Of a stretch of DNA of 64,000 nt, positions 10,042 to 63,895 are shown piece by piece. Source of the stretch: Cephalotus follicularis (Eukaryota; Streptophyta; Magnoliopsida; Oxalidales; Cephalotaceae); the NCBI GenBank assembly GCA_001972305.1, contig BDDD01000174.1:62001-126000 (forward strand). The letters are read 5' to 3'. How positions within the stretch are numbered: the first letter of the stretch is position 1; each line of letters begins with the position of its first letter. Made by a program: the position numbers and the translations under genes. The notes below the pieces were generated by a model. The model was not told the origin of the DNA. It did no database searches and saw only the letters and a program-made list of their open reading frames with translations.

Positions 10042-11549
10042 GCAAAATTGAGGGTGATTATTAATTTCTACTCCTAAACAAGCAAAATAACTAACTGGTA
10101 AAGAAAACGTCTTAAGCGTTGTCGCTTAAATGTAAGGCGTCGACGGTATAATCAAAAGCATTGAAAGCGTTGACGTAACTACAAAATAACACTAAAAGTG
10201 TTGACTATCTAGAGAAGCACCGCTAGTTAAGCAAATTGAATCGAAATTATGCAGGAGTTAAAACATGCAATATTGAATTAATAGAACAAGAAATAAACTA
10301 ATTACAATATGTATTATAAAATCGGTTTTAGGGTATAGAAACTCACCATCGATTATATTGAAAACTCACTTACTTGATTGCTCAAACCTTGGTAATTAAC
10401 AGTCGCTAGGTCGATACGGAGTGCGACTGTGATGACAAATCGTATGAGTAGTCATGATAGGTCTATACGGAGTGTGAGTTGATTGACAAATTGTATGAGT
10501 AGTCATGCTATGTCTATACGGAGTTTGTTTAGTGTGACAACTCGTATGAGTGGACATCCATTAATTTCATACAAGCACTATTCATTCAGCAACTTTCTTC
10601 TTCACAGACAAAGTGTATGTCGATTTTAATATGACATACAAAGTGTGGGAGATGCCGGAAAATTGAAGAACAAATCAAAAGTTCAAGGATTTTTATTAAT
10701 GGAGTTTCATCAATACATTTAATGGTTTTGTTCTAAACCTAAAAACCTTGAAAGGTTAACTAGAAAACATTGTAATAAAAATTGTTGAAAAGAAAAGAGA
10801 GAGATGGCTGTGTAAAGCTTGTCCACCCCTTAGGTTTAGCTTTTCTTTCGTTTAAATAGCCTTATAATCCGATGCATAAAAGGAAAGAAAATATAAACTA
10901 ATTATTCTAAAAGGAAAGAAAATCTAAACTAATTATTCTACTTAATGTAAATATTACAACCAGTCAAAGCGTCTAAAAATTTCCATAATTTGTCACCTAA
11001 GTCGTGCTAAGCATTGATGGGTAGAATGTGGCAGATGCGCTAAGCGTCAACGTGTAGTACGTAAATAGCAGACTTGTAATGCGCTAAGCATCGACAGTAA
11101 CATGAAAGGTGTAGGCGCTTTGCAGGTGAAATCATATTAGCCGAGCAGAGTTCCAGACCATCTTTATTAATGCAGAGCATATCTTGTAGACTAGACGACT
11201 AGCATATATAAGACAAAGAAAGCGGACTTGAGTATTGGCAAGACCAGACTTGGATGTTTGTCATACCATGATATGCTTTGAAGGTAGACTTGCAGAGAAG
11301 ACATGAAATGTTGGTCAGACCAGACTTGAAAGTTACTGAGCACCACTTTGTGGAGCACAATAAATTTGTCAGACCAGACTTGAGGTGTTAGCAATCGGGC
11401 CGACTATGAAGTGCAGTAGCAGACCAGACTTAGAGTGTTGAGTAGAGAAAACCATGAAGTACAGAATAGCAGACCAGAGAATGTAGTCTGGTGCACTTTT
11501 AAGCATCGACGCTTTTAATTAACCCGTCAGCACTTTATAGATAAGTGTC
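10042..11549 (-). repeat. Right (5') LTR of Athila-like A, second piece
   Basis: Continues the LTR after the solo LTR. It holds the family's tandem repeats (10410-10560), M1 palindromes (10095-10200 and 11035-11110), and a distal part (11185-11520) with repeated CAGACCAGACTTGRA phrases. Copia 1 interrupts it at 11550, and the rest of the LTR is not seen in the window. With the first piece it makes over 1.6 kb, longer than the 1.3 kb LTR of Athila-like 2. Confidence 0.75.
10410..10560 (-). repeat. Tandem repeats in Athila-like LTR
   Basis: Three units of about 50-57 bases, each with CGTATGAGTAGTCATG and TCTATACGGAGTGTG or close variants. The same units occur in reverse orientation at 22673-22825 and 36333-36450. 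They are subrepeats of the LTR, located in its downstream part in transcript orientation. Confidence 0.85.
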
Positions 11550-11667
11550 TGTTGACGTTTTAGTCTCAATCCTAGTTTTGATGATAACATATTTGCTTCC
11601 AACAAATTTACTTTATATGCAAGATACTTAACAATCTCACAAAAATGTAAAAAGATAGTTTCAGATG

Positions 11668-12240
11668 AAAGACATCGACGTCATTGAAGGAAGACATCGA
11701 CGCCTTTAAAGCACCAGCGGTTATAGGCAGTTATTCTTGAAAGACATCGATCTCATTCCAAAAAGACATCGATCCCTTTTAGAGAAGACATCGACATCTT
11801 TAAACCAAAAAGTTACAGGTCGATTTTAAACAAAGAAATCGATCTTTTTCAGTGAAGACATCGACCGTTTTCATCAAAGTCATCGATCCCTTCAAAAAGG
11901 CATCGATATTTTTAATGCCTCAAAGTTACAGGTTGTTTTTGAAGAAAGACATCGAGTATTTCCTACAAAGACATCGACTCCAAAGTAAAAGACATCGATC
12001 CCTTTTCAAAGACATTGATGTGTTTTTCAAGACTTCTATTTTTCCAGAAAAGACATCGATGCAGTTTGAAGACATCGATGTGTTGCTCAAATCTTCAAAG
12101 CCTGGCCACAACTCCAGAAAAGACATCAACATCATTCATAGACATCGACGTCTTTAGACAAAATTACGCCCTGAACGCTAGCAACAGCTAGTTAACTGAT
12201 GAAGACATCGACGCCTATCAAAAGACATCGACGTCTTTAC
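11668..12240. repeat. M2 palindrome array (GACATCGAYGTC)
   Basis: About 20 degenerate copies of AAAGACATCGACGTCTTT-like words in 570 bases. The left arm AAGACATCGA is usually kept and the right arm varies (CGTCTTT, TCCCTTT, CGCCTTT, TGTGTTT). Two spacers carry TTACAGGT: AGTTACAGGTCGATTTT at 11811-11827 and TTACAGGTTGTTTTT at 11926-11940. Both spacers recur in LTRs of other lineages (22151-22170 and 59900-59914). Confidence 0.9.
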
Positions 12241-12332
12241 TCCAATGGCTACATAACAGAGTTTATAGATTGTCATCAGTTTTCAATTCAAAATCCCCAT
12301 AATTTAAGCAACGGATACATGGATTGTTTTGG

Positions 12333-12342
12333 CTATATAAAG
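12333..12342 (+). promoter_or_regulatory. TATA box in copia 1 LTR
   Basis: CTATATAAAG lies about 90 bases after the last M2 palindrome and about 510 bases before the LTR end, a suitable place for the polymerase II promoter that defines the U3/R border. Confidence 0.65.
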
Positions 12343-12854
12343 GAGGGTTCAAGGCTTCAGAGATCATCAAGAAACAAAGCAATCAAGCAATCAAGCAAGC
12401 TACATTTTACAATATCAAAGTGTTCTTAAGCTTTTCCAAAAAGCCAATAGCTTTACCTTCTGAGTTTTTTCTTTCTAATTCTCTCCTGTTCTTTATTGTA
12501 ACCCAAACCTACTGAGAGGATACATTGTAAACACATTACAAACTTGTAAAAGAGGAGAGTGAATCCTCAAAAGGTCTTGAGGTCAAGATCAAGTGATTGA
12601 GTTCAACCACAAAAACTGTGAGGTGTAACGAATTGCTTCCTTTATCAATTCGAGCTAGTGGAAACTCAAGGATCTACCTTGAGAAAAGTGGACGTAGGCA
12701 AGAGTTAGCCGAACCACTCTAAAAACAGAGAATCTTTCTATCCTTACTCTCTTTACTTTAAATTTTTTTATTTGTTTTTATTTGTTAGTATATTTGTTAA
12801 TATTCAATTCACCCCCCCTCTTGTATATTGCAAGAACTCTTTTTATTATTTCAA

Positions 12855-12868
12855 TTGGTATCAGAGAG
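12855..12868 (+). promoter_or_regulatory. Primer-binding site of copia 1 (tRNA-iMet)
   Basis: TTGGTATCAGAGAG follows the LTR end by one base and matches the usual TGGTATCAGAGC complement of the initiator methionine tRNA. Confidence 0.85.
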
Positions 12869-14840: not shown

Positions 14841-14965
14841 CAAAACGCCGACACTTTACACAAAGCGTCGACAGTTAGGGTTTTAGGCCAAAGCGTTGAC
14901 AGTTTAGAGTTTTACAACAAAAACGTCGACGCTTTAAACATAAGCGCCGAAGGTTTGACAGTCTA
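14841..14965. repeat. M1 palindrome cluster in Tekay 1 LTR
   Basis: Six degenerate copies of AAGCGTCGACGCTT or AAGCGTCGACAGTT: ACGCCGACACTTT, AAGCGTCGACAGTT, AAGCGTTGACAGTTT, AACGTCGACGCTTT, AAGCGCCGAAGGTTT. The counterpart in the right LTR is at 36949-37045 with fewer clear copies. Confidence 0.85.
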
Positions 14966-21791: not shown

Positions 21792-21999
21792 TGTTTAGCA
21801 TAAAAATGTGTTGTTTTTAATGAGTTATTTGTTATATTTTTATGCTTGGAATAGACTACTTTGGTTGTGTTACATTGATTTTCAGGTACAAGTGCCAAAT
21901 GACCAAAGTGCAAGAATACTACCCAAAAGTGTGTAAATTGGAGCTTGAAAGAGTAAAGATTGAAGAATGGACAAATTCGGCAGAAAAAGAGCCAAACGC

Positions 22000-22305
22000 G
22001 TCGATGTCTATAATAAAAACCGATGTCTTTTCTGGGTTTCAGAAAACACGTCGACGTCTTTTGTTAGAAGTCGACGTCTTTTTTGGGCAATACAAAGAGC
22101 TATGAACGAGGGATCGACATGTTTCAATAAAGGGATCGACTTCTTTGAGTAAAATCGACCTGTAACTTTTGACCAAAAGGGATCGACGTCTTTAGTCAAA
22201 GAAGTCGACGTCTTTCAAGCGCATCTCAGCAAATCGTGACTTTTACAAGAAGACATCGACGCCTTTCAAAAGAAGTCGACGTCTTCTCCTGCAGCAGAAA
22301 TAGAA
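22000..22305. repeat. M2 palindrome array in Athila-like 5' LTR
   Basis: About 12 copies, many as GTCGACGTCTTT with a right-arm preference, opposite to copia 1 where the left arm is kept. AAAATCGACCTGTAACTTTT at 22151-22170 is the exact reverse complement of 20 bases in the copia 1 array (11808-11827). The 3' LTR has the same array at 28090-28385. Confidence 0.9.
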
Positions 22306-23116: not shown

Positions 23117-23426
23117 GGCGGTTTAAATTAGTTTAAATTTATTCGGCTAATTCGTAGTATTTATTTTTGTTTTATTTTTCTGTTTTTTGTGTTTTTGTAA
23201 CAATTCTAATTTAGTTTAATTAGGAATCATCATAACCCTTAACAAACCGTAATCTCATTTGCATAATCTTTAACAAAATTCTAACTTAGATAATTAGGTT
23301 CAGCATAAATTTTAACAACATTTTAACTTCATCATTGCATAACTTTAACAATTTTCTAACTTAGATAATTAGGTTTCTTGCTTTAGCTTAGGTTCTCTGA
23401 CTTAGTTTTAGTTTATAACCGATTGG
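23117..23426 (+). other. Untranslated leader of Athila-like 2
   Basis: About 310 AT-rich bases between primer site and gag. It contains repeated phrases TTCTAACTTAGATAATTAGGTT (near 23280 and 23350) and CATAACTTTAACA. No coding signal. Confidence 0.6.
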
Positions 23427-27883: not shown

Positions 27884-28554
27884 TGTTTAGCATAAAAATG
27901 TGTTGTTTTTAATGAGTTATTTGTTATATTTTTATCGTTAGAATAGACTGCTTTGGTTGTGTTATATTGATTTTTAGGTACAAGTGCCAAATGACCAAAG
28001 TGCAAGAATACTACCCAAAAGTGTGCAAATTGGAGCTTGAAAGAGTAAAGATTGAAGAATGGACAAATTCGGCAGAAAAGGAGCCAAACGCGTCGATGTC
28101 TATAATAAACATCGATGTCTTTTCTGTTTTTCATAAAACACGTCGACGTCTTTTGTTAGAAGTCGACGTTTTTTTGGGCAATACAAAGAGCTATGAACGA
28201 GGGATCGACGTGTTTCAATAAAGGGATCGACTTCTTTGAGTAAAATTGACCTGTAACTTTTGACCAAAAGGGATCGACGTCTTTAGTCAAAGAAGTCGAC
28301 ATCTTTCAAGCGCATCTCAGCAAATCGTGACTTTTACAAGAAGACATCGACGCCTTTCAAAAGAAGTCGACATCTTCTCCTGCAGCAGAAATAGAAAGAT
28401 TATATTTTTTTGCCAGATTTTGTAACTAGGATTGCTTTATTTCCGTTGTTGATCAATTTTGTAATATATAAACAATGTTATTTCGGCCAAATAGGGCAGA
28501 GTGTGTGGAAGTAGCCACCTCCCTCCTTCTTTTCTCCTTAGTTTAGCTTCATTA
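27884..28554 (+). repeat. 3' LTR of Athila-like 2, first piece
   Basis: Follows the 5' LTR with about 4% differences, including the M2 array at 28090-28385 and the TATA box, up to TAGCTTCATTA (28544-28554). Then copia A begins. The LTR resumes at 36332 within the tandem-repeat region, so about 180 bases of LTR are not represented. Confidence 0.9.
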
Positions 28555-28929: not shown

Positions 28930-29285
28930 AATCTGTCAGAAACTGTTCCTGTCGACTAAAGCGTCGACGGTCATGTGACCGTTGGGGATCTCAAATTTGA
29001 ATTCTCAGCTCAAAGCGCAGGCGTTCAAATGCTGGAGTCGACCGCCAGTTAAAGCGCGAACGCTTAGTCTGTGGGCGTCGATGCTTAGGCACATTTTAAT
29101 TGCCATTTCTCCACTGTCTCAGCCGGCAGGCGCTTTGTGCCTCAAAGCGCAGACGCTTGAATTTTAGGCGTCGACGGTTGGAGTGTTATTCCCAATTCTC
29201 CAAGAGCTTCACCGGTAGACGCTTTGTTCTTGTCTTGACCGTCTGTTAAAGCACAGACGCTTTGATGCTAAGCGTCGACGGTCTG
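28930..29285. repeat. M1 palindrome array in copia A LTR
   Basis: About 12 copies of AAGCGTCGACGGT, AAGCGCAGACGCTT, GCGTCGATGCTTAG and related words. Some arms are CGGT/ACCG rather than CGCTT. Spacing is 20-40 bases. Copia 1 has M2 words at the equivalent U3 place. Confidence 0.85.
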
Positions 29286-31551: not shown

Positions 31552-31691
31552 GACGGCGCTTAGAAGCTTAAAACGAGACTAAAGTGTTGACAGAGTGGGT
31601 TTAAGCGTCGGCGCTTAGACCACTTTCCCAAATTCAAACCCTAATTTTGCTTTAAAGCGCTGACGCTTTAAAAGCAATGGTCGGCGCTTAG
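31552..31691. repeat. M1 palindrome cluster upstream of third frame
   Basis: Five degenerate words: GACGGCGCTTA, AAGTGTTGACAG, AAGCGTCGGCGCTTA, AAAGCGCTGACGCTTTA and GGTCGGCGCTTA, in 140 bases. The cluster lies 55-195 bases upstream of the first ATG of the third frame in the element's direction and outside any LTR. Confidence 0.8.
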
Positions 31692-36712: not shown

Positions 36713-37337
36713 TCCAGCTAAGATATTCGCGTACTAGCATCCTAAATGAATGAACGTAGCCCTTTATTGTAAGCCTCATTGAAATTCATTTTGAAGATTA
36801 GTTAGAGGATCAATTGTGTTTAAAAAGGTGGTTCACATAGGTTGCACAGCCCTAGAGAAGCCTCCTACGAAACCCATTTGAAGATAAAACAGTTTGGGTT
36901 GAAAAGAGGATGAAAATATAGCATTTTGTATAGAACAGGGCTAACAAAGCGCCGACACACTACACAAAGCATTGACAGTTTAGAGTTTTACAGTAAAAGC
37001 GTCGATGCTTTAAACATAAGCATCGACGGTTTGAAAGTCCAGACATCTATGCGGAGCTGGCAACAGTTGAAAAATCAATCCAAATTCCCTTTAAATCATT
37101 TAAAACTCAATCCAAAGGAAGCTATAACTCCTAATGGCCGATTTCAATTTCAAAACAACTTCAAAACATTGAAATCAATACCCATAAACCCATAATCAAG
37201 AGAAAAAAGAGATTGGGGCTTAATGTCCCAAAACTCACCAATCTCTCCCTGATTTCCATTTTAATCCGTAATCAACCATAACAATCACCCTAATACATCC
37301 ATCTAACACGTATATATCAATCCATAGCCACACCATC
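36713..37337 (-). repeat. Right (5') LTR of Tekay 1, second piece
   Basis: Collinear with 14620-15260 of the left LTR, including the M1 cluster (36949-37045) and ATATATCAATCCATA before the break. At 37338 Tekay 2 begins, following CCATC (37333-37337), the probable duplicated target. The left LTR has ACCATCATGG at that point, consistent with a simple insertion. Confidence 0.85.
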
Positions 37338-39557
37338 TGTAATCCCTGAGTTATGGATGTCTTTATTTGATTGTATTTATATGGTATTGTACCCTATTGT
37401 ATTTATGGATGGTATATCATATTATGGTATTTTTCTCTTTCATGGATGTTTATTGGTTATGAGGGTTTGATAAAACCTATGGTGAATTTTTGGGTTTTTT
37501 ACCCTAGGAAACTTATATATAGGCGAGGTGACTCTTCTATTCTCATTCCATTTCTAATTTCATATTCTAGAGAGATAGTGAGAGAGAGTTAGAGAGATAG
37601 AGGTCAAAATCAAGCAAGGAATGATCCATTGGATTCATGACGGAGTATCGAACTTGAAGGAAGGATTAGATAGGGGATTCAACAGTAAATCCTTCCAGAT
37701 CTGCATTTTAATAGTTTTGAGATAGATTCTACATATATGCATTGAATTCATGCATATTACTAGATTGAATGAATTATAGGGTTATGGATTAATAGATCTA
37801 TGCTAGATGAATGAGTTAGGGTGATTGTTACAGTTAATAACGGATTAAAATGGAAATAAGAGAGAGAATTGAGAGTGTTAGGTTTATAGGCCTAATCTCT
37901 TCTCTCTCTTGATTATAGATCTATAGGTATGGAAATAGGGGTTTAAAGTTGTTTTTAAGCTGTAATCAACCATTGGAGTTTATAACTTCCTTTGGATTGA
38001 GTTTCAAGGGGATTTAGATGGATTTGTATGGATTTTGGAACTATTAACAGCAGAGTTCATCTATGTTGTACGACCTCAAACTGTCAACACTTTTGTTAAA
38101 GCTTCGACGCTATGCACGCTTTAACCGATAATGCATTAAGGTAACCTGTCGATGCTTTGGCTGTAACGCGCAAACTGTCGACGCTCTTGCCCAAACCGTT
38201 GCCACTTTGTAGCACTAACAGTCGATGCTTTGACTAAATGATCTGCGCTTAGCGCCCTGTTTTTATACAAAATGGACTGTTTTCAACCCTTTTTCAATTC
38301 CAAACTCTTCTATCTTTAAATGGATCCTATAAGAAGCCTCCCTAAGGCCTTGTAACCTATATGAACCCTCTTTTAATGCAATTGATCGTCAAATCAATCT
38401 TTAAAGTGGAATTCAAGGAAGTTTCATTAAAAGAGTTTTATTAACTTCAATAGGAACCGAAATACAAATACGGTATGGTTGGACCTATGGAAACACCATT
38501 ACAGACTAGAACCTTCTGGGACTAGAAATACAGTAACGGTTTTGATGGATGGATCACACGTGATCCATTACGGATAGGTCCCTATCCTTTAAAAATGATT
38601 TTTATGGGTTTTACATTTAAGGGTTTTGTTATTTATTGTTTGAGACTTGACGAGATAACCCATTCGTAATCTTCACTTTCGTCATGAAGGTTATGGTTGT
38701 TCGACCACATTACACAGGGGTTATCGGAACATCGCTTTAGGAGTGAACCTACGGGGATCACCACATTGTGGATGTAATTATGGAAATACGGTACGGAAAC
38801 ATATTAAATTATTTTACTGTACGGTTGATGTGGTCATTGTTATCTCAACCCCGCTCGGCTACGACCCAAGAGGTGGGTAGACGATGGTTGTACTATCTCA
38901 GGCCGGAGAGGTAGAGTGGTACTCATACCTTACGGATTGTTTGTAACCATGGATTAGTTTTAGGAAGTATCTGTAGACCTAGGGTGTATGGATGATAAAT
39001 TTTATGATTAGGACTCGTTGTGTATGCCACCGCTTTGGGATGGTTGATATACCAACTTTGTCCACAATTGGCATTCATGTATTTCACATGTCATGTATAT
39101 ATATGTATATATCTGTTCAGTTCATTGCATATAGTGTTACCTACATGCTGTGTGTGGCTGGCCCATTCTAGAAATGGGCACAACATCAAGGAGCGAGTAT
39201 TGAGGATACATCAAAGTGACGAGATCGACCTGACCTCTAGGACAAGACTTCCAGTTACATTTCAAATTATTGATATCTACCTTGTATAAGAATGAGTGTA
39301 TAAGACTGTTGTGTACGATGTATTTCAGTTGTATTGACCTGTCGGCTTGTGGTAGTGCTTCAGACGTGTATTGAGTATTCTGTTGCATGACCTTGGTTTT
39401 GCTATACATGTATCTGAATGGTTTTTCATTCTATGGATATTGATTAAAGTTTTTATTTATATCTTATTTTTTATATTGTGCTATGCATATTAATGATTTA
39501 TATGGACAGTTTGACTAGTGTCAGGCCGTGGGGTTTTCCCATGGTTCGGGACGTGAA
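37338..39557 (+). repeat. 5' LTR of Tekay 2
   Basis: 2.2 kb, starting TGTAATCCCTGAG and ending near GGGACGTGAA. Reversed, it is alignable with the Tekay 1 LTRs throughout. It carries a TATA-like CTTATATATAGGCG (37512-37525), an M1 cluster at 38079-38235, and a CCCATT...AATGGGC stem-loop near 39160-39180. The end position is uncertain by a few bases. Confidence 0.85.
38079..38235. repeat. M1 palindrome cluster in Tekay 2 LTR
   Basis: Degenerate words AAACTGTCAACACTTTT, AAGCTTCGACGCTATG, ACCTGTCGATGCTTTGG, AACTGTCGACGCTC and CAGTCGATGCTTTG. The cluster is about 560 bases downstream of the TATA-like box, so it would be transcribed, unlike the arrays in the sirevirus and Athila-like LTRs. Confidence 0.8.
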
Positions 39558-42880: not shown

Positions 42881-45046
42881 TGTTGGGAATGGTAATCCAT
42901 CCCCGCAAAAATAAATTAGACCATAGGGTGTTAAAGGTACAAACAAATTTTTTTTTGGTTTAAACATGCTAGCGGAAGCAACCATTAACACCACTAAAAC
43001 AGGTCCATACAGAGAATACATGTCACAAGGAACACCACATAAATTACATAATTGAATTCATATCACATATACATGCTTATGTGATATAACTATGGCAACA
43101 CAGAGGAAAAATAGGAGACATACCGAATGGCGATGGCTCCTTCATTTTTGCCGGTACAAGCTTGGGTAGACTCAGGTTGATACTTCAAGCTTTTAGTTTC
43201 TCCTCCAAGTCGAAATTCTGTTGTGCCAAGTAGCGGGTTTCAAAGGCCAGCAACTGATTTTTCAAAAAACCAACTCAGTTTTGCAAGACTCTGTGTTTCC
43301 TATTTGTGCTCACAAAAAGGGAACATTGTAATTGACAAAGGTTGTCAATAACAATCCACCCTAGGTTAGCTCCAAGCTTGGTGAACAAATCAGTGAAGTG
43401 ATTACTCAAGTTTTGGACGCACACCTACCAGCAATTTCACGCTCTGTCTTTACGCCAACAAGTTGAGCACGAAGTTGAATGCACCAGCGCCCATAAATCG
43501 TGCACCATCACTACGCTTCCTCTAAGGAAACCCCTTCCCACTCCCAATGTGCTCCCTCTTTTCTCACTGAGAAGGAAAACCAGCTGGGAGTGGGAGAAGA
43601 ACGTGCCCACATAGTGTGCCAACGTTAAGGCACTAAGCGTCGACGCTTTGTCCAAAGGCGTCAACGCTTAGACATGCTGGGCTTTACACCTGTCAAAAAT
43701 GATTCCAACGCATTCTTTGTATGACACATGTTCACTTCTCCAAGAAAACAACCAACAATAACTTAAATGAGTCCTACTCATTTTAGTAATGCCACATATC
43801 TCTTCGAATATTATTTAAATATAATTTAGCGAATATGTCACGATTTAACGATGACACAATTCGCAAAATACACCTAACCAATATTTGATTTTATAATTGT
43901 CACCAAGACTGAATATGTCCAGCATATTTATGAAGAAATCATTATCGACCAGAGACGCTTTAAAATCTCGTTTAAAATCTGGGGTGTTCATAAATTACCG
44001 AAATACCCCCATGGTTCGGTTAAGCCATTCTAAATAGTCCCAGACCTATTTAAAATGCTTCCGGACTAATATTCAATATTATCAAGGTGAAAAATTAATC
44101 CAATAAATTTTATCATGATTTATTACACACCACCGTAATGCGAGACTTTTTGAGTCGTCGGTTCGCGTGTACTATAATCACTCGTCATACTTAGCCCTGA
44201 TTGAGATCTAGGGTAAGGATATATGCCAATCCTATAAAATACCTCAATGGTTAAAATATCTGATTATCACTAGGACCTTTGGTAGATTCTTCGGAAATCT
44301 AATTTCCAGTCCACCTCAACATTGGCCAATGATTTCATAAGTCCAAAGTACAATCAGACCATAATAAGGCCGATCACCTTCTCTCAGGTGTGACGATCCC
44401 ATATTTTGCACTCACTTATAATCGTATAGATTCGATCATACCCAAAGACCACCCGATTGCAAGCCCCGTGTAAGAATTGGGTAAGGTGGAGATCAAACCA
44501 TAACCTTCTACGTACAATATAGAACAGTCGCTCAAGTCTAAGGATCATATGAGTTCAAGAACTCGCTAAATGACTAGCACATATACACAACCGCAACAAG
44601 TAGGAGTTACTACTGACACGTGAATAGCGACTATCCAAATAGTGCCTCCTACGCGGATCCTGTTCAGTGTACACGCTCCCAGTACCCACCTCGTATTTGC
44701 CCTAGTGTCACAACACAAGTGGTTGTGAGAGAATCCATCCTACAATTCCTAAAATCATGCAACATAAAGTCTTTCTGGTTCACTAATGCCCACTAATTGA
44801 ACCTATGACTTGGAACTAATTCGATACAACGAATAAAGTAGCCAATCTCACTGCCTCCATGCTTGGCATCCAACCTTATGTCCGGGCATTACAAGCGTAA
44901 GTAGGTTTATATAGACTACTTTGATTATATGATAAAACACAAGTGATATTGCCATATTAATTATAAACAAAATAACACATGCGATATATTTGGAATAAGA
45001 TTGTTTATATATGCAAATAGGTTTTATACAAAAGCCTATCCAATGG
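42881..45046 (-). repeat. Left (3') LTR of copia 2, main piece
   Basis: Plus-strand start TGTTGGGAATGGTAATCC, matching 58631. Covers nearly the whole 2.2 kb LTR; the last 24 bases are at 52502-52525. M1 palindromes AAGCGTCGACGCTTTG and GCGTCAACGCTTAG lie at 43637-43671. The element at 45047 is inserted after AATGG (45042-45046). Confidence 0.9.
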
Positions 45047-45762: not shown

Positions 45763-46495
45763 TCATGACTGCCTGAGACAGCGCTTTCGGCACCGAGTCT
45801 CGGTGAGTCACGGGCAGGGACGCATAGGACTGGTTTATGTGTGGCGTTTTTGGGTGGTGATCGAACCTGTTGAGGTCCGGCGAGTCGACTCAGTGAGTAA
45901 CAACTCACTACCGGCCGTGGCGCAGCGTTCGACACCGATTCCCGGTGAGTCATGAGCGGTTCTGTGTAGACCGTTCAATGTGGAACCCGTTGATGAGTGT
46001 TTCGTAAGCGTGATGAGTCGGCCGAAATCCGGCGGCGTTTCGGTGACGCAATGTTTTGTGTGTCGAGCATAACGGAAATGTGTTGTATGTGCAGTGTGCG
46101 AGTGGTAATTGGATTTGGCATTGAGGAACTGATCAATTGGCGAGAACCGGGGTTCGGTTCAACGGTAATTGGAAAGGTTCGGCAATTGAACCTACGGCTC
46201 GACTGTGCTGTTGTGGCTGTTATTCCTAATTTGGAATCAAAGGTAGGGGATTTTATAAATGTTGTTTGAGTTCAATTATAATAAATGTTCCTTGATGAAA
46301 TGCGTGCATATCGTGTCTTGGAATGATTGTGGGCTGTGGATTGTGGATTGTGTGACTGTGTTAGGGTTTCTATGAATAGTTAACCCGTCATGCATATTGT
46401 GTTTTACAATGATTGTAGATCGGATTACATGTGTTGTATACTTCAACATTATTGGTTTTGAGGTGTGTCGAGGGAATCGTGTTTTGGTTCGCGTA

Positions 46496-46601
46496 ACCGT
46501 CGACGCTTAGGAAAGAAGCATCGACGCTATAGATTGTTATACGGAGAATGTGTCCTGATTCACGATAAATGTCGACGCTTAGAGATAACGTCGACGCTAT
46601 G
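46496..46601. repeat. M1 words in LTR of the 45047 element
   Basis: Four copies: ACCGTCGACGCTTAG, AGCATCGACGCTATAG, TGTCGACGCTTAGAG and AACGTCGACGCTATG. They stand just before the M3 array, so this LTR carries two palindrome classes side by side. Confidence 0.85.
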
Positions 46602-46674: not shown

Positions 46675-47010
46675 GAATCCAGCTGATTGTCCACGAGGAC
46701 AGCCGACTGCTCGAGTGCGCCAGTCGATTGTTCGGTATGAACAGCCGACTACTCAATCCATCCATCCGACTGTGCTTGGGAGCCAGTCGACTGTGCATGT
46801 ATGTTACTGAGAAATGCCTGCAGAGGCTTGAGTAGCCGACTGCTGTAGGCCAGCGGCCGACTGTTGGGTATAAACAGCTGACTATCAAGGATGACAGCCG
46901 ACTGTCGAGTGTGGGCAGCCGACTGTCGAGTGTGGGTAGCCGACTGCCAGCTTAGGACGGCCGAGTGTTGAAGGAAAACAACCGACTGCCAGTATGGGAC
47001 AACCGATTGT
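46675..47010. repeat. M3 palindrome array in LTR of the 45047 element
   Basis: About 15 degenerate copies of CAGTCGACTG, mainly as AGCCGACTG, spaced 17-30 bases. The left arm has drifted to GCC while GACTG is kept. The shorter 3' LTR of this element lacks the array. Confidence 0.88.
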
Positions 47011-47682: not shown

Positions 47683-47689
<7 letters not shown>

Positions 47690-47718: not shown

Positions 47719-47721
<3 letters not shown>

Positions 47722-48210: not shown

Positions 48211-48329
48211 ATATTCCTTTTATAAGCTATTGCTGGGATACTATCCTCGGCAAGTAAATAATAGGATGAAGAAACTTGTCCCGGCTAATAGGTTCCTTGG
48301 CAATTAACGATTGTTTCCTCCAGATGAAC

Positions 48330-48780
48330 CATGACATCTTTCCTTATAGGAAACAAAATGGATGGAAGGAGAAAATGCAGAAAGCCTCGAGCCGTTAATG
48401 AAGTTTTTCCTAAGGAAGTGAATGACAGAACGGACCCTATGAGCCGTATAGCGGATTAATTCCTGCAGTAGATGGCTGCGAATGTTGCAAACATGGTGGA
48501 TACGCGTTGATTGTATGCTCAAGCTCACCCACAGCACATGGCTCCTGGCCACGGTGCACGTGATGATGGAAATCAGTTTGGAAGGAATCTTGATAGATTC
48601 ATTGAGCATAATCCTTCTAGTTTCAATGGGGAACTTGATGCGACTATTGCTGAAAGATAGTTACAAGATCTGGGGAAGATCTTTACTGTTATGGGTTACC
48701 CGGAAGGCTGGCCTTAAGAAGGCAGACCTCCTGAATCCTACAGGATACATCGAATGAAGAGATAGGGAGGGCTTTGAAGT
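48330..48780 (+). pseudogene. gag remnant of the 45047 element
   Basis: Phrases such as MAANVANMVDT and, in other frames, RFIEHNPSSFNGELDATIAE and GKIFTVMGYPEGW are recognisable as the start of a Tekay-type gag (compare FLKLNPPAFVGDSN in Tekay 2). No long open frame. Broken. Confidence 0.6.
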
Positions 48781-50529: not shown

Positions 50530-50690
50530 GGTTTGATGTGGATGCGCTGTGGTCGCAAGCCTATCGCTCTAGTTTCTCCGTACATCCGGCGATTAGAAAG
50601 ATGTATCGAGATCTGAAGCTCGATATTGGTGGAAGTGTGATGGTAGTACCATGGGCTTGGAAAGCCACTTGGAACGAGAGGAAGAAGTGA
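50530..50690 (+). pseudogene. Integrase zinc-binding remnant
   Basis: RSSFSVHPAIRKMYRDLKLD matches the N-terminal zinc-binding part of gypsy integrase (the HPG.TKMYRDL motif). It is all that remains of pol in this element. Confidence 0.65.
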
Positions 50691-50744
50691 AGGCATTCTA
50701 CCTTCACATGTTTAATCTAGGGAATCTCGGGATGAGATTTCTTT

Positions 50745-50757
50745 AAGGAGGGGAGGA
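50745..50757 (+). promoter_or_regulatory. Polypurine tract of the 45047 element
   Basis: AAGGAGGGGAGGA just before the 3' LTR start TGTAAAGCCCC. Confidence 0.85.
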
Positions 50758-52496
50758 TGTAAAGCCCCGAATTTCATAAATAATTTTTATGAAATTGGTG
50801 CGTGTACGATCGTAATAAAATTGATAGAGGGTCGGAGTAATAAAAAGGCATTACGCATTTAAGTCGAAATTGTGTTAGCCAAAACGGCTAATAAAGCCTA
50901 TTTTTAATGCGCCACAATAAAGCCCAAATGTTCGTATTTTTATTGCGATTATTTTGGTGGCTGTTTGGATAATTTATGTCGCGATTCGCGAAAAAATCGG
51001 GACCCAGATCTTAATATTTTACCAGAAAATACTAAGGGGGAAGCAAAAGAATAAAGGAAGGGAGAGGGGGACACGGGCGCATCATGCGCCTGTGCAAGAA
51101 AGAAAGATAGCGGGCGCTCTGTGCTCCCGTGCCAGAGAGAGAGAAAGAGAGACTGGGAGAGGCAGCGGGAGAGAGAGGGAGAGAGGGCACCGGAGACAAC
51201 GCCGGAGCCAGCCACGTGACCGGGAGAGGACGGCGGACAACCCAGGCACGCCTACCGTCGTTAACCTCTTCCCCCTTCCCCTCTTTTTTCTTCTTTTTCT
51301 TCTTCTCCTTGCCACTGTCGCGCCTCCTCCCGACGTTTCCCGGCGCCGTTAGCGTCGCGGATGGTGTAGGTTATGGTGTAGAAGGCCCGTTCTACCCATT
51401 TCGACCACCAGTCAGGCGTGATTCGGCCGAAAATGGCCAGAATAAGTTGACTGAGTCGACTCAGCGAGTCAACTCATGGCTGCCTGAGACAGCGCTTTCG
51501 GCGCCGAGTCTCGGCGAGTCACGGGCAGGGACGCGTAGGACTAGTGAATGTGTTGCATTTTTGGGTGGTGATCAGACCTGTTGAGGTCCGGCGAGTCGAC
51601 TTAGTGAGTCGCAACTCACTGCCGGCCGTGGCGCGACGTTTGGCGCCGATTCCCAGCTAGTCGTGAGCGGTTCTGTGTAGACCGTTCAATGTGGAACCCG
51701 TTGATGGGTGTTTCGTAAGCTGGATGAGTCGGCCAGAATCCGGCTGCGTTTCGGTGACGCAATGTTTTGTGTGTCGAGCATAACGGAAATGTGTTATATG
51801 TGCAGTGTGCGAGTGGTAATTGGATTTGGCATTGAGGAATTGATCAATTGGCGAGAACCGGGTTCGGTTCAACGGTAATTGGAAAGGTTCGGCAATTGAA
51901 CCTACGGCTCGACTGTGCTGTGGCGGCTGTTATTCCTAACTTCGAATCAAAGGTAGGGGATTTTATAAATGTGGTTTGAGTTCAATTATAATAAATGTTC
52001 CTTGATGAAATGCGTGCATATCGTGTCTTGGAATGATTGTGGGCTGTGGATTGTGTATTCATTACATAGCATTCTTTATCGTTGACCCCAAATCATGTTT
52101 ATAACTTAGCCGAGTGAGGACAAAGGCTAACCCCCCCTACAGTTTCAGTTTGATTTCAGGTTGATGTAGCGGATTGTTACCGTTGAGCTCCGTGGAGCAA
52201 AGTGGAGTTTATGTTGTTTCTACTTATGAGAAACGTCAATGGATCTTTGTAATAAATGAATTGATGTATTGATGAATATTGTTCATGCTCCGTTTGAGGA
52301 CAGTTAACTTTGATGATGTTTATTATTGTAGCATGTAGTATGGGATGCATGTTACGTTTCATTTGGCTTATATTTAAATGCTTCCGCAAGTTGTTTGTGG
52401 CATTGGAAAGTTTTAAATTTATGGTAAATTGCATAAGCCGGATTTATATGTTGATTGCCACCACTATATATGTCGGTTGTGAAACGGGGTGTGACA
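50758..52496 (+). repeat. 3' LTR of the 45047 element
   Basis: Starts TGTAAAGCCCCGAATTT and ends GGGGTGTGACA, 1.7 kb. It matches both ends of the 5' LTR with about 5% differences but lacks the middle of the longer copy, including the M1 and M3 arrays and the microsatellite. The nested palindrome (51446-51473) and the 3' stem-loop (52106-52135) are present. Confidence 0.9.
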
Positions 52497-56560: not shown

Positions 56561-58630
56561 CATATTCTAGCAACCTAGATAAGGAAACAAAAGATGGGTT
56601 AGCATTTATTCCAATTTTAATATATGACAACCATAACACTTGGTCTTTAGTGTATATGGTTCCTCCCACTATTCTAATCGTATTTCATACGCCCATATGA
56701 AACTCAAGAAGTCCAACTTCCTAGTGGGGATTGGAATCCATCGCAATCATATTATGGCCTTAGCTAGGGCATAACAAACCATAATATATTCAATGGTAGG
56801 CTATCTTGACAATTTGCAGCCAATACAAGATTCAATCATAAAATTCGGCCTTTGATTCAATATGGCCTTAGCTAAGGCATAACAAACCATTATAATCAAG
56901 ATAAGTCAAGCACCCACAATCTTTATTGGAATGCACTAGTGTTAACACCCACACGTAGGCGTGTCCAAGTGCTAAAACATAGCCACCCTTTGTAGTGCTT
57001 AACACCGACGTTGACATAGTATGCCTTAGGATACTAGCCTCAGCTAGGGCATGACAAACTATTAACCCAGGTACACCACTCAACAAAAATTGTGGAAGGC
57101 CACAGGGAACCCCTCCATGAGTTCCTACGTTCAGACTTATTATTTAGTTGAGGAAATTTGAGGTCTCACATTTTAATTTACCAAGACTTTAATTCAATCA
57201 TTGGTTTCATTACCCAATTCCAATTAATTACGGCTTTGCATGCATGACATGTATTTGGACTATCCATCTTATGCACCTTGGATTTATTTCTAAAATAAAT
57301 CAATGGAATGGCAAGGACCACACTATAAGTAATGACTCGAGCCCAAAGTCACTACTCGGTCTTCCTAGGTGCTATGATCAAATCTATCTCTTACATTTAG
57401 CTCCATGCATACATGGCCTTCAATGGTCTTGTACTTCGCTTCTCCTCTTCTCCATCCCTCATTGCAAGGTCTTCTTTTACAAATGAAATTTACATTCCAA
57501 ATAAAAATTACATACAAATTTTAAAGAAGAGAATACATATCAAAGGTGAGAAGAGATCCTATTCTAAAAAGGATACATAAGAGAAAAATAAATGGTGCAC
57601 GCAGGAACCTTATTACATATCATCAATGAATAATAGATAAAATCATCCACAAAAGAAAACCAAAACTACTTCTTGCCCTTATACGCCATGCATTGTGCAT
57701 AAGAGTATTAAAGCATATCTACTATAAGTTCTAAATCAATACACAAATGCCTCTCATAATAACCAATTTCAAATTTTAATAATGATTATTTATCCTCTGA
57801 GTGCCTTATGCAAGAAATTCCAAATTTTTAGCAACAATGTAATTTTATGTCTAGGCGTCGACGCTAAACGCCAAAGCGTCGACAGTTTACAACAAACCAT
57901 CAATGCTCAGCATGCGTCGACACTTACAGCCTAAGAGTCGAAGCTTACTGCCTAAGCATCGACAGTTTGCAACAAACCGTCAACGCTCAAGACAGTAAAC
58001 AATGCTTATCATAAGCGCTTAAGCTAGCGTCAATGCTTTAACCACAAAGCGTCGACGCTTAGCACTTCAGCAGAATAGCACCATGCGACAAATTATAGTT
58101 TTTTCAGGAATTGGACTTAGGCAATTCAATTATCTGCACTATGCAAACATTATATGACCCAAAATGCACTATGCAGGTTCTAAACACAAGTCCAAACCCA
58201 ATGGTCTATGCAATTCACACATTCTTCAACCATTATCCATAAACTAGAAAACAAAGGCATCTCCAAGGATTACATGCAAGAGTATCATGAAGCAAGATAG
58301 TGGTTACATTCATGCTCCCACTATCTCCAACTAATGGACACTTGCCTGCCTATATTAAGTGCAGGAAAATCTGCACAATCCAAGTAATGCTCAATGCATT
58401 CCATATGTCTACGAACCGGGTAAAAAGAACTCCGAATTACATTCCATCTTGTAAACATATAGTAATACAATCGCCGGGACAATATCACACAAAATAGTTT
58501 CTGAATTCCATCCAATTTCATTCAAAAACATACAAAACACCAAATTACACTAAGGCACTTATGGATTGAGTTTAACTGTAAAAAAAAACTCTAATTAAAC
58601 CTTTAATCAATCATCATCCTAGGCATTAAC
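56561..58630 (-). other. Two-kilobase leader of copia 2
   Basis: No convincing coding region between gag and the right LTR. It has three copies of a CTTAGCTAGGGCATAACAAAC-like phrase (56758, 56862, 57042) and an M1 palindrome array (57850-58075). A standard primer-binding site next to the LTR was not found: bases 58615-58630 read, on the minus strand, GTTAATGCCTAGGATG, which is not a tRNA match I recognise. Confidence 0.6.
57850..58075. repeat. M1 palindrome array in copia 2 leader
   Basis: About 11 words in 225 bases, for example GGCGTCGACGCTAA, AAAGCGTCGACAGTTTA, TGCGTCGACACTTA, AAGCATCGACAGTTTG and AAAGCGTCGACGCTTAG. This is the densest M1 array outside an LTR. Confidence 0.88.
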
Positions 58631-58994: not shown

Positions 58995-59214
58995 TGTGAT
59001 GACCCAAATTCTCTTTTTGTACTGTTCATGCATACCTTGTACTGTATCCTACCGTATTGAATTTTATTGAACCGAATTGTACTGTATTGACTTGTACTGG
59101 ACCATATTGTATCGTACCGGCATGAAATAAATATGTACCTATCGGTTATAGTATGGAACGTATGCATGTATAGTCAGGATTTTGGAATAAGTATCGGAGA
59201 GATAAGGAAATTGA

Positions 59215-59223
59215 CTATATAAG
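59215..59223 (+). promoter_or_regulatory. TATA box in the 58995 LTR
   Basis: CTATATAAG about 220 bases into the LTR, followed by a pyrimidine-rich leader (TCCCTCTTTTCTCTC). The M2 array lies about 515 bases downstream, within the transcribed part. Confidence 0.6.
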
Positions 59224-59737
59224 TCGATTTCCTCCCTCTTTTCTCTCATTTTTCACCACCATCTCCCTCTCTATACCTTCCTCATCCTCTCTCTTAGCTA
59301 GACAGCCTCCATCCTTCATCTAGCAGCTCCGGTTTGGCTTCTTCCATCAACAAAGATAGCATTTGCAAGTGGTAGCGTACCAATTAAACAAGAAAAGAGA
59401 GTGGGCTCTTGGGAATCTCTGACTTTGATCAATTGTTTGTTCAACTGTTAAAGCTGCTATAATAGGTAGGACTTCTTACTTGAATTACCTACAGATTGTA
59501 CTGATTGATTGATCGAATTGCATGATTGAATGAATGTATTGAGTGAATTGTAGGTTTTAACTAAATCCTTAGCCAAATTGATATAGAAAATGATAGAATT
59601 TGTAAATTGAAGGTAGTAACTTCTCTTACTAACCTTAAATGATTGATTTTAACACTTGGTTTTCAAAGAATGGGTTTTAAAGGGTTTTTGACCTGAGATT
59701 TGGCTATTTTTCTGCATAAAATCGACCCTGCCCAGTA

Positions 59738-60090
59738 AAGACATCGATCTCTAGCCCATGGACATCGATGTCTTTTGCTTGAAATGCTGCATACTTGTTT
59801 TCTACAACAAAGACATCGATGTCTTTCAAAGACATCCACGTCTTTGCCCATGATTTCTCATTTTTAAAGAAGACATCGATGTCGAGCATCGATGCGTATT
59901 TACAGGTTGTTTTTAATGAAACACGTCGACGCCTTTTTCCAAAGACATCGACGTCTTTAAACCATATGTTTATTCAAATAGAGAAAGACATCAACGTCTT
60001 TCAAAGACATCAATGTCCTTCTACAGTTTTGAAGAATTGCCTGAAACGCATCGATGTCTTTCGCCAAAGACATCGACGCCTACAATGCAG
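59738..60090. repeat. M2 palindrome array in the 58995 LTR
   Basis: About 13 words in 350 bases, for example AAAGACATCGATGTCTTT (a perfect 18-base palindrome, near 59811), AAAGACATCGACGTCTTT and ACGTCGACGCCTTT. The spacer TTACAGGTTGTTTTT (59900-59914) is identical to one in the copia 1 array (11926-11940). Confidence 0.92.
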
Positions 60091-62080
60091 AATGGAATTT
60101 TAACTATTTTAAAGCTGGTTTTCAACTCCTTTTGACATTTGCCGCTTGACCGGAGCCTCACTTGAAGTATTCCAGCGTTTGAAATACAGTTTTCTACAGT
60201 TTTCAAAAATTGGTTTGATAAATTGATAGAGTGATGAAGTGAGCCATAGGAAAGATCCAATGACTTTCATCGACCGGGTAGACATTCCTTTCTATCTCGT
60301 TGATTCGATTGTCACCGTCTATTGACTACTGACTGACTGATCGATCGATTGATTGATTGAGCCATAGGTGTTGCGAGTCTAAGTTCAGAACGTTGGACGC
60401 TTATTCCCATTTCTCCATTAGACATCACCACTTATCGGCTTCGTACTGACAGATTGATTGATTGTATTGTATGGATCCTATAGAGTGACCTTATGACCCA
60501 TATCAGCATGTTAGGTTATCGACCTTGTCCACCTATTTCATCGATCGCCTCATTTATTGTATTGATCTGCTAACAAGCAGTACTGTTACTGATTGACGAT
60601 TGATGCTCCCGAAGGGTCGTAGCTCCCCCATGGTTGTAGCTCATCGATATTGTACTGACCCAGCCATAGGCTAGAAGATCTACGAGTTCCAGCATGATCA
60701 GTTTGAGAACAATAGATAGATCTCCCACCTTTTTCGAAGGACTACCTTCCGTGGGATTGATCATTACTATTGATTGACATTGTACCGACCCGAGGTCACA
60801 TGCTCTATAGGATATGATTGTTTGATTGGGTATTTGATACACCACCATTGAGTGTCTGTGATTGATTGTGATAGATTCTATCCATATGCTCTTTTATGGG
60901 CCAGTGTCATACAGATAGTCAGATCGCCAATTGTATTCATGTATTTGCCATATCATGCATTTATATTGTACACCGCATATTTATATTGCGTAGACTGTCA
61001 TCGATATTGCACATTGTACATGCATACATGCTGCATGGGGTTTCTGCTTAGCCCTGTGGCTAACCCCATCCCTCGGGGTGGGTCTATGTTGTACTCTTAT
61101 GTGTGGCATAGGTAGGGTAGCAGGTAGCAACGGGCAGAAGGATTGAAGTTTTGGTGCGACCGCATGATCGTTTGGATATGACAGAGCCGTCTTACAGATT
61201 GTGCTGATGAGACTGAAGACTAGTGTTGTATGGAAATGTATCAGAATGAAATGACTGACATAGTATTGTAACTGAATAAGTGTTGCATTATAATGACTAG
61301 TACTGTACCGTATTGTATCGCATGAATGAATATTAGTATTGTAGCTTCTGCATATGACATGTGTTTGAAAAGTTGTAAGTTTTCCACTTTTTTTATATTT
61401 CTAGTCCCGACCACTGTATTGTATATTGAATTGAGAGTAATGCCACGTGTTCGTTCTGCGGGCGCGGGGTGTTACAGAATGGTATCAGTGTCATACAGAT
61501 AGTCAGATTGCCAATTGTATTCATGCATTTTCCATATCATGCATTTATATTGTACACCACACATTTATATTGCATAGACTGTCACCGATATTGCACATTG
61601 TACTTGCATACATGCTACATGGGGTTTTTGCTTAGCGTTGTGGCTAACCCCATCCCTCGGGGTGGGGCTGTGTTGTACTCTTATGTGCGGCATAGGTAGG
61701 GCAGCAGGTAGCGGCGGGTAGAAGGTAGCAACGGGCAGAAGGATTGAAGTTTCGGTGCGGCCGTATGATCGTTTCAATATGACAGAGCCGTCTTATAGAT
61801 TGTGGTGATGAGACTGAAGACTAGTGTTGTATGGAAATGTATCAGACTGAAATGACTGACATAGTGTTGTAACTGAATAAGTGTTGTATTATAATGACTG
61901 GTATTGCACCGTATTGTATCGCATGAATGAATATTAGTACTGTATCTTCCGCATATGACATGTTTTGAAAAGTTTTAAGTTTTCCGCTTTTTTTATATTG
62001 CTAGTCCCGACCACTGTATTGTCTATTGGATTGAGAGTAATGCCACGTGTTCGTTCTGTGGGCGCGGGGTGTACAACGCC

Positions 62081-63895
62081 AGCAACTGATTTTCCAGAAA
62101 ACCGTCTCTGTTTTGCACGACATTGTGTTTCCTATATGTGCTCACAAAGGGAACATTGCAATTGACAAAGGTTGTCAATAACAATCCACCCTAGGTTAGC
62201 TCCAAACTTGGTGAACAAATCAGTGAAGGGATTACTCAAGTGTTGGACGCAGACGCACCAGCAATTTCATGCACTGTTTTTATGCCAAAAGGTAGCGCAC
62301 AAAGTTTCACGCACCAGCGCCCACAAATCATGCACCATCACGACACTTCCTCTAAGGAAACCCCTTCCCACTCCCAACGTGCTCCCTCTTTTCTCACTGA
62401 GAAGGAAATTTGGCTGGGAGTGGGAGAAGAACGTGCCCAAGTCGTGTGCCCATGTTAAGGCACTAAGTATCGATGCTTTCTCCAAAGGCGTCGACGCTTA
62501 GACAGGCTGGGCTTTACACGTGTCAAAAATGAGTCCAACTCATTCTTTGTATGGCACATGTTCACTTCCCCAAGAAAATAGTCAACAATAACTTAAATGA
62601 GTCATACTTATTTTAGTAATGCCACATACCCCTTCGAATATTAATTAAATAAGATTAAGCGAATATGTCACCATTTAACGATGACACAACTCGCAAATTC
62701 CACCTAACCAATATTTGATTTTACAATTGTCACCAAGACTAAATACGCCCAACATATTTTATAAAGAAATCATTATCGGGCAAGGACCCTTTAAAATCTC
62801 AGTTAAAATCAGTGGTGTTCATAAATTATTGAAATACCCCTAGGGTTTGGTTAAGTCATTCTAAATAGTCCAAGACCTATTTAAAATGCTTCCGGACAAA
62901 TATCCAATATTATCCATATTAAAAATTAATCTGATTAATTTTCTAATAATTTATTACACACCGCCGTAATGCGGGACATTCTGAGTCATCGGTTCGCGTG
63001 TACTATAAGCCCTCATCATATTTAGCCTCGATTGAGGTTTAGGATAAGGATAAGTGTCAACCCTAGATAATACCTCAATGGCTAAAATATCTGATTATCA
63101 CTAGGACCTTTGGTAGACTCTCCGGACATCCAATTTCCAGTCCACCTCAACCTTGGCCAAGGATTTCATAAGTCCAAAGTACAATCAGGCCATAATAGGA
63201 CCAATCACTTTCGCTCAGGTGTGACGATCCCATATTGCGCACTCACTTATATTAGTATAGATTCGATCATACCCAAAGACCACTCAATTGCCAGCACCAC
63301 GGAAGAACTATGTATGGTGGAGATCAAAACATAACTGTCTCCATATAATATAGAGCGGTCGCTCAGGTCTAAGGATCATACCAGTTCAAGAACTCGCTAA
63401 GTGACTAGCACATATACACAACCGCAATGAGTAGGAGTCACTACTGACACGAGAATAGCGACTATCCAAATAGTGTCTCCTACGCGGGTCCTGTTTAGTG
63501 TACTCGCTCCCAGCACCCACCCCGTATTTGCCCTAGTGTCCAACACAGATGGTAGTGAGAGAATCCAACCTCCAATTCCCAAAAGCAGGCAACATAAGCA
63601 CAAGTCTATCCGATTCACTAATGCCCAAAAATTGAACCTATGACTTGGAACACAAGGAATAAGGTATCCAATCTCACTGCCTCCATGCTTGGCATCCAAC
63701 CTTATGTCCGGGCATCACAAGCACAAGTAGGTTTATATAAACTACTTCGATTATATGATGAAACACAAGTGATATTGCCATGTTAATTATAAACAAAATA
63801 GCACATGTCATATATCTGGAATAAGACTATTTATATATACAGATAGGTTTGATACAAAAGCTCATCCAACGGCTTGTTGGATCACCCTATCTAAT
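62081..63895 (-). repeat. Right (5') LTR of copia 2, second piece
   Basis: Follows 43250-45046 of the left LTR through to the LTR end at 63895. M1 words TATCGATGCTTT and GGCGTCGACGCTTAG lie at 62465-62502, matching 43637-43671. Confidence 0.9.

Follow-up and report, generated by a model that had tools for sequence, protein, structure and literature searches.

Clustered palindromes are known from the long terminal repeats (LTRs) of the Sireviruses. The accessible parts of Bousios et al. (2010; PMC2829016) describe repeated motifs ("RM") that are palindromic, number 8 to 32 per element and lie in CpG islands upstream of the LTR TATA box and of the envelope-like (ENV-like) gene. According to that paper, RM are specific to Sireviruses and not found in classic copia elements, and all except Tnd-1 have a CGG-CCG core; two of the words are centred on TCGA, namely those of Vitis (CGGTCGACCG) and Tnd-1 (ACAATCGATTGT). 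Moreover, the available excerpts of two other reports describe a maize palindrome, CACCGGACNNNGTCCGGTG, in structured regions of Copia and Helitron elements (PMC10760457, 2023) and heat-responsive nGAAn clusters in the LTRs of ONSEN and Terestra/Alesia elements of Brassicaceae (PMC10881000). Here, we analyze a single 64-kb stretch of Cephalotus follicularis contig BDDD01000174.1 (the window, to which all counts and coordinates refer) and find arrays of TCGA-centred palindromes in ten nested LTR retrotransposons: two Sire-type copia elements (Sire1 and Sire2), one other copia element (X), two Athila elements (Athila-1 and Athila-2), two gypsy elements with reverse transcriptase (RT; Tekay-1 and Tekay-2) and three gypsy-type elements (S1, S2 and Y). 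We propose, at a probability of about 0.6, that the arrays are LTR regulatory modules made of predicted dyad-symmetric sites for a host DNA-binding protein family, which would act cooperatively and in an enhancer-like manner.

The palindromes fall under three words, M1, M2 and M3, and their extended units were counted against 30 dinucleotide shuffles. The M1 unit (AAAGCGTCGACGCTTT, at most 4 mismatches) has 54 matches vs 1.3 in shuffles, the M2 unit (AAAGACATCGATGTCTTT, at most 4 mismatches) 42 vs 0.8, and the M3 unit (GCAGTCGACTGC, at most 2 mismatches) 15 vs 0.8. The arrays that a model's sequence-only reading had picked out are therefore real. That reading placed them between 10095 and 62503, which holds for the right part, while on the left they start at 2366 (run 2366-62500). 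As exact words, GCGTCGACGC occurs 4 times, GACATCGATGTC 3 times, GACATCGACGTC 4 times and CAGTCGACTG 8 times. Among palindrome centres with perfect arms of at least 5, TCGA is by far the most enriched, TATA and ATAT aside (24 vs 3.05); ACGT (1 vs 2.05) and CCGG (0 vs 1.75) show no excess, and CTAG shows a weak one with arms of at least 4 (19 vs 12.0). The three classes are each enriched, but M1 and M2 are variants built on a single core, CRTCGAYG. This 8-mer occurs 39 times vs 1.44 expected, and 37 of the 39 lie in LTRs; counts for eight control cores of like form range from 1 to 6.

The sites are concentrated in LTRs. The 111 matches, counted over both LTR copies of each element, collapse to 105 distinct dyads, 93 of them in LTRs. 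With the six sites that fit both M1 and M2 counted twice, and with the partial end left of 2254 taken as LTR, LTR DNA (30.6 kb) holds 99 matches vs 1.6 expected and the remaining element DNA (33.3 kb) 12 vs 1.4. Eight of these 12 lie in the leader of X and two just upstream of the Sire2 ENV-like open reading frame (ORF); two are scattered (41822 and 48388). Every one of the ten elements has sites in some LTR, from 2 per X LTR to 16 M2 matches in Sire1, and so restriction to one lineage, which the sequence-only reading had named as grounds for rejection, fails in the window. Sites are missing from some LTR pieces, namely fragments of Tekay-1, Athila-1 and X, the 3' LTR of Y and the partial end that lies left of 2254. 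CpG is richer in 6 of 7 arrays tested than in the remainder of their own LTRs; in Sire1 and Sire2 the observed/expected ratio is 1.24 in the array and 0.31 and 0.29 in the remainder (formal island criteria not applied). Chance as the origin of the arrays is ruled out by the enrichment of centre, units and core and by confinement to LTRs.

Dyads within the arrays are phased along the helix at about 10.3 bp, that is, at same-face positions, and the description of their spacing as degenerate in the sequence-only reading does not stand. The main spacing tests left out second LTR copies and kept both Athila-2 LTR pieces, which overlap by about 155 bp. Seventeen sub-arrays then give 91 consecutive gaps, with 52 at 19-23 bp, 7 at 28-31 bp, 2 at 38 bp, 11 at 41-45 bp, 13 at 47-52 bp and 6 at 63-75 bp; none of the 91 falls at 24-27, 32-37 or 53-62 bp. 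The best period over pair distances, scanned from 9.8 to 10.9 bp, is 10.28 bp (bootstrap over arrays, 10.22-10.34), the words taken singly give 10.30 (M1), 10.24 (M2) and 10.34 bp (M3), and mismatch-free cores alone give 10.28 bp (51 pairs). The pair-distance score at 10.3 bp is 0.551, vs a maximum of 0.188 in 500 sets in which every gap was jittered by up to 5 bp and of 0.482 in 500 jittered sets that kept the 19-23-bp gaps. Moreover, the 39 gaps of at least 24 bp are phased on their own (jitter P = 0.0006). A stricter set of 89 dyads, with one overlapping Athila-2 piece removed, has 38 of 71 gaps at 19-23 bp, phased longer gaps (P = 0.0004, n=33) and, among all periods from 8 to 14 bp, a best one of 10.26 bp.

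The spacing might also be that of selfish minisatellites, in which a functionless unit of 19-23 bp is multiplied by slippage or unequal crossing-over. More than half of the gaps have that length, TRF finds true tandem repeats (e.g., 46895-46946, 96%, and 11740-11794, 81%), and a contribution of local duplication is sure. Duplication of 21 bp alone is insufficient, however, because gaps such as 30 and 51 bp span an odd number of turns, and odd multiples (28-31 and 47-52 bp) are both common and phased. Moreover, the same words recur in LTRs that have no other detectable similarity, they persist while the linkers between them differ, and they are nearly confined to LTRs, the X leader and the region upstream of the ENV-like ORF. 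We regard minisatellite growth as an improbable explanation of the arrays as a whole. Rotational positioning of nucleosomes or intrinsic curvature, with no sequence-specific protein, might likewise impose a helical period. Nucleosomal DNA has a period of 10.2-10.3 bp and free DNA one of 10.5 bp, and the 10.28 bp found here is nearer to the former. What is kept, however, is a full word of 12-18 bp and not a dinucleotide pattern, and the A/T flanks of M1 and M2 are missing from M3. When all TCGA tetramers are taken, the 10.3-bp signal is weaker (0.325, 246 pairs) but still tops those of the other 14 palindromic tetramers, of which CCGG (0.299, 26 pairs) and AGCT (0.211, 70 pairs) score highest. 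We consider positioning or curvature by itself very unlikely.

Palindromes could instead work in RNA, with LTR transcripts forming UCGA-loop hairpins that are used by the element or made into small RNAs, as proposed for maize Sireviruses. Four of five arrays fold far more stably than shuffles (z of -5.0 in Sire1, -9.2 in S2, -3.8 in Athila-1 and -8.0 in the X leader), and an excess of small RNAs over maize Sirevirus palindromes has been published, as summarised in the available part of PMC10760457. Palindrome arrays always fold, however, under selection or none, and in Y the M3 array is no more structured than shuffles (z +0.23). Moreover, the arms do not covary, with 420 complementary pairs vs 422.9 +/- 6.4 in shuffles (isolated sites at 9226, 10802, 37355, 43476 and 47958 are left out of the covariation, half-site and consensus tables), and thus RNA pairing is unlikely to be what is kept. 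Finally, no role in RNA is known for a 10.3-bp phasing that includes odd multiples. A role in RNA appears unlikely as the main explanation.

One type of array appears to have moved between lineages. A non-palindromic linker, L (GTTACAGGTYGWTTTTAAA), has 5 matches at up to 3 mismatches vs 0.09 expected, all inside M2 arrays. Copies in Sire1 and, in opposite orientation, Athila-1 match perfectly across 21 bp, and L recurs in gypsy-type S2. Linker-only comparison of Sire1 with Athila-1 scores 42 vs a maximum of 23 in 300 shuffles (156 linker comparisons were made in all, and the top 10 were tested by shuffling). The centre of L (TCGA or TTGT) is flanked by M2 dyads, one at 28-31 bp and one at 19 bp, twice in Sire1, once in S2 and mirrored in Athila-1. 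Because L and its dyad geometry recur in these three LTRs, an M2 cassette appears to be common to copia, Athila and gypsy-type LTRs and to have been inverted once. Apart from L, the sequence between sites differs among LTRs. The word can also switch within a lineage, as Sire1 carries M2 and Sire2 M1, while Athila-1 carries M2 and Athila-2 M1; the LTR flanks of the two Athila elements are 77-78% alike, and this likeness stops 17 and 18 bp from their first dyads.

Sharing across lineages might reflect exchange or capture among a few elements of one locus, from which nothing general would follow. The elements are indeed nested in one another, and two of the LTRs match perfectly across 21 bp at L. 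Nesting alone, however, copies no sequence between LTRs, and the LTRs of Sire1, Athila-1 and S2 have no blastn similarity to one another at 1e-8 over at least 80 bp, by which plain LTR homology as the whole cause is also rejected. No L-like linker was seen between M1 or M3 arrays of different lineages; the single pair that exceeds 300 shuffles, the Sire2 LTR with S1 (26 vs 25), is taken as chance among the 156 comparisons. We give a purely local exchange a slim chance.

How the arrays would work under the protein-binding explanation can be outlined from the positions and forms of the sites. Clusters of TCGA-centred dyads would be bound by a host protein family, in the form of a dimer or of two monomers that face each other. 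Proteins on adjacent sites, with dyads about 2, 3, 4 or 5 turns apart, would share a face of the helix and may cooperate there as an enhancer of LTR transcription. Helical phasing would be expected of cooperative DNA binding and supports this explanation, and the earlier suggestion of clustered dimer-type sites across unrelated LTRs likewise fits three features, namely the phasing, the confinement of sites to LTRs and a dyad symmetry in which the arms do not covary. Variant flanks (CRTCGAYG with AAAG...CTTT, or CAGTCGACTG) may suit different family members or conditions. Convergent selection would have given unrelated LTR lineages their arrays, perhaps joined, at least in the M2 type, by exchange of cassettes between lineages.

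Several observations weigh against binding by a cooperative host protein. The missing covariation would equally follow from neutral decay of an ancestral palindrome. Half-site mismatches are unequal in Sire1 (10 for upstream halves vs 43 for downstream halves), S2 (7 and 19), Athila-1 (22 and 11) and the M3 array of Y (18 and 7), while those of S1 are equal (7 and 8); such asymmetry in several arrays makes strict dimer recognition less than certain. In Sire1, Athila-1 and Sire2, respectively, 105, 97 and 101 bp separate the last dyad from a TATA-like box downstream of it (the boxes being consensus guesses), but the arrays of Tekay-2 and S2 lie about 520-565 bp downstream of one, and thus not all LTRs show the same promoter geometry. 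Both arrangements would be compatible with an enhancer-like action that depends on neither position nor orientation. With phase left free, the 39 longer gaps fit 11.1 bp best (R 0.491), and only the zero-phase test, which the model requires, gives 10.3 bp for them. CCGG has a phasing score of 0.299, though from 26 pairs only, and Y lacks both a CpG contrast (1.09 vs 1.10) and, as noted above, excess structure in its M3 array. Two of the five long-form matches to L are the two LTR copies of Athila-1, and a short form of L is unenriched at up to 2 mismatches (8 vs 9.08). Besides Sire1/Athila-1 and Sire1/S2, eight linker comparisons have nominal P values of 0 to 0.06; some of these are partial copies of L in S2 and Athila-1, and we take the rest to be chance. 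Finally, the evidence comes from one 64-kb window.

We speculate, more tentatively, that most LTR lineages of the host plant, copia and gypsy, may depend on a single host protein family that reads TCGA palindromes along one helix face, and may trade arrays as orientation-independent enhancer cassettes, in which the flank word can change within a lineage while core and phasing stay.

The arrays of Sire1 and Sire2 resemble Sirevirus RM in several respects. They have at least 8 copies per element (18 in Sire1; 9 in the Sire2 LTR plus 3 before its ENV-like ORF, at up to 5 mismatches, or 3 for M3), they cluster upstream of the TATA-like box, as in Athila-1 also, extra copies precede the ENV-like ORF (PF20167) of Sire2, and the clusters are CpG rich. 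Unlike RM, they lack the CGG-CCG signature, the Sire1 and Sire2 consensus being TCGA-centred with CG or CA/TG flanks, and cores of CRTCGAYG or CAGTCGACTG are found also in the LTRs of X, Athila-1 and -2, Tekay-1 and -2, Y, S1 and S2. Because RM are described as a Sirevirus trait, we do not file the sites of these eight elements as RM. In PMC2829016, the word "helical" occurs in the reference list only. The maize palindrome CACCGGACNNNGTCCGGTG is similar in being one palindromic word in unrelated transposable element superfamilies of one host, but it has a CGG-CCG core and is treated as an RNA structure or small-RNA template, with no mention of phasing or linker sharing in the available text (PMC10760457). 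Likewise, the nGAAn clusters are a clustered host transcription factor motif (heat shock factor) common to LTRs of different families, but the word is another, the factor is known, and no Athila or gypsy element is named in the parts available (PMC10881000).

A candidate reader of the sites might be sought among the cold-responsive CBF/DREB factors, whose CBFHV/RYCGAC element is described in excerpts of PMC6804553. RYCGAC, on either strand, is present in 65 of 108 sites, and RCCGAC in 8 of the 10 M3 sites of Y, but RYCGAC is missing from the other 43 of 108, and 13 sites are centred on ATCGAT. CBF/DREB is thus a lead only. We know of no CBF factor that binds such palindromes as a dimer. A GTCGAC in PMC5146874 is a cloning site and no parallel. 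TCGA palindrome arrays in Athila or gypsy-type LTRs were not found in the literature as covered by titles and abstract openings, with subscription literature mostly outside, and neither "palindrom" nor "TCGA" occurs in those papers with a transcription factor binding motif that were searched in full text. The sequence-only reading knew of no description that covers several lineages; the Sirevirus share had in fact been described in 2010, TCGA-centred words included, and it is the spread to Athila and gypsy-type elements for which no account was found. Palindrome arrays of Sireviruses are thus already known, two of the published words being TCGA-centred, while the spread over lineages, the phasing and the common cassette appear new.

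The window as a whole is a nest of plant LTR retrotransposons by self-comparison and Pfam, with element boundaries read from the sequence (Table 1). On the left, a reversed Athila-2 contains the solo LTR S1 (target site duplication [TSD] GCAAA), and Sire1 follows as an LTR with a gag piece, its interior past gag lying outside the window. On the right, a reversed Tekay-1 contains Athila-1, with Sire2 inside, and Tekay-2; Tekay-2 contains X, and X contains Y (TSD AATGG) and S2 (TSD ACGCC). Pfam matches are a copia gag piece in Sire1; copia gag, INT, RVT_2 and the ENV-like ORF in Sire2; gypsy RT, RNaseH and gag in Tekay-1; RT in Tekay-2; RVT_2 in X; and gag in both Athila elements (PF03732 in Athila-1). 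The labels "Tekay," "Athila" and "Sire" are ones we presume from LTR ends, primer-binding site (PBS), gag and ENV-like ORF, not from an RT tree. S1, S2 and Y have no RT match and are called gypsy-type by their ends and TSD, plus a PBS-like site in Y and S2. The RT of X differs from that of Sire2 (24% over 160 residues), and the eight carriers besides Sire1 and Sire2 resemble other copia, Athila or gypsy elements. LTRs are homologous between Tekay-1 and Tekay-2 and between Athila-1 and Athila-2, and those of Y and S1 look alike by eye. The M2 array said earlier to lie in a gypsy-type LTR is indeed there, but its owner, S2 (LTR at about 58996-61472), is a separate insertion, because it has its own TSD and PBS-like site; a nested Sirevirus as owner of that array is rejected on the same features and the gypsy-type ends.

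Table 1. Arrays, site groups and linkers in the window. Counts marked "up to 5 mismatches" use M1/M2, with the M3 word then at up to 3.
Feature	Position	Strand	Evidence
M1 sites (3), 3' LTR piece of Athila-2	2366..2444	-	word scan; homology to Athila-1; gag Pfam
M3 array a (5 sites), S1 gypsy-type solo LTR ~7308-10042, TSD GCAAA	7477..7606	+	
M3 array b (6 sites; gaps 20, 21, 21, 21, 20), S1	8638..8752	+	
M1 sites (9 at up to 5 mismatches; 4 at up to 4), Athila-2 5' LTR region	10113..11536	-	
M2 array (18 sites, up to 5 mismatches), Sire1 LTR ~11549-12855, PBS 12856, TATA 12334	11668..12238	+	gag Pfam
Linker L copy 1, Sire1; TCGA centre 29 and 19 bp from adjoining M2 dyads	11812..11830	+	
Linker L copy 2, Sire1; 30 and 19 bp from adjoining dyads	11925..11943	+	
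M1 array (5 sites), 3' LTR of gypsy Tekay-1	14842..14956	-	gypsy RT/RNaseH/gag Pfam
M2/hybrid array (9 sites), Athila-1 5' LTR; TATA-like 22374; PBS-like 23099	21994..22286	+	gag PF03732
Linker L, Athila-1, inverted relative to Sire1; exact over 21 bp (AAAAGTTACAGGTCGATTTTA)	22148..22166	-	
Athila-1 3' LTR copy of M2/hybrid array (96% identical), linker L at 28239-28257	28086..28377	+	
M1 array (9 sites at up to 5 mismatches, one via M3 word), Sire2 LTR; TATA-like 28864	28958..29284	-	copia gag/INT/RVT_2 Pfam
M1 sites (3), Sire2, just upstream of ENV-like ORF (PF20167, 30189-31526, -)	31602..31690	-	
M1 array (4 sites), split 5' LTR of Tekay-1	36946..37032	-	
M1 array (6 sites), gypsy Tekay-2 LTR; ~565 bp downstream of TATA-like 37514	38078..38231	+	RT Pfam
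M1 pair 21 bp apart, 3' LTR of copia X	43634..43670	-	RVT_2
M1 array (4 sites), 5' LTR of Y (45048-52495, TSD AATGG, PBS-like 48197)	46494..46600	+	
M3 array (10 sites at up to 3 mismatches; 8 with RCCGAC core), 5' LTR of Y	46699..46989	+	
M1 array (8 sites), X leader, left of X 5' LTR	57852..58061	-	
M2 array (11 sites), S2; ~520 bp downstream of TATA-like 59216	59737..60083	+	
Linker L, S2; 31 and 19 bp from adjoining dyads	59899..59917	+	
M1 pair, 5' LTR of copia X	62464..62500	-	

Several elements are unusual in form. S2 (58996-62076) consists of an LTR, a PBS-like site and a second LTR fragment with nearly no interior, and 60902-61472 is repeated at 61486-62072 (90%). The 3' LTR of Y (50758-52495) lacks 1.4 kb that bears both arrays in the 5' LTR (46350-47749), and the rest is 93-97% identical. 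The leader of X is about 2 kb long (56564-58629), has no recognised PBS beside the 5' LTR and bears eight M1 sites; a nested solo LTR as owner of that array, sought by TSD, gave 5 candidates vs an estimated 3 to 4 by chance. A 25-N gap at 28678-28702 adjoins the junction of Sire2 and Athila-1, and Sire2 has no 5' LTR; because of both, the junction may be an assembly problem. The gag ORF of Athila-1 contains an Rfam snoR71 match (23853-23959, minus strand; 43.4 bits, gathering 40), either chance or captured. Among the best 120 of 239 matches to the Athila-1 gag piece (23412-24548), many of them nameless, the best named are an odd taxonomic pair, Tasmannia lanceolata (72% over 68% of the query) and C. 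follicularis (77-90% over 33-55%). An RT query found none above 74% among the best 120 of 7367 matches. In viral contigs, searches with two RT pieces found no relatives, and the exact words occur at 13 loci (10 + 3 stretches) with at most 2 matches of one word per locus.

The triggers that activate plant LTR elements are known in few families. Should arrays in many lineages be read by one protein family, much of a genome's mobile load could come under the control of a single factor, or through it of the host. The phasing rule provides a sharp signature by which any plant genome can be searched, and the linker shared in inverted form would directly trace regulatory DNA moving between Copia and Gypsy elements.

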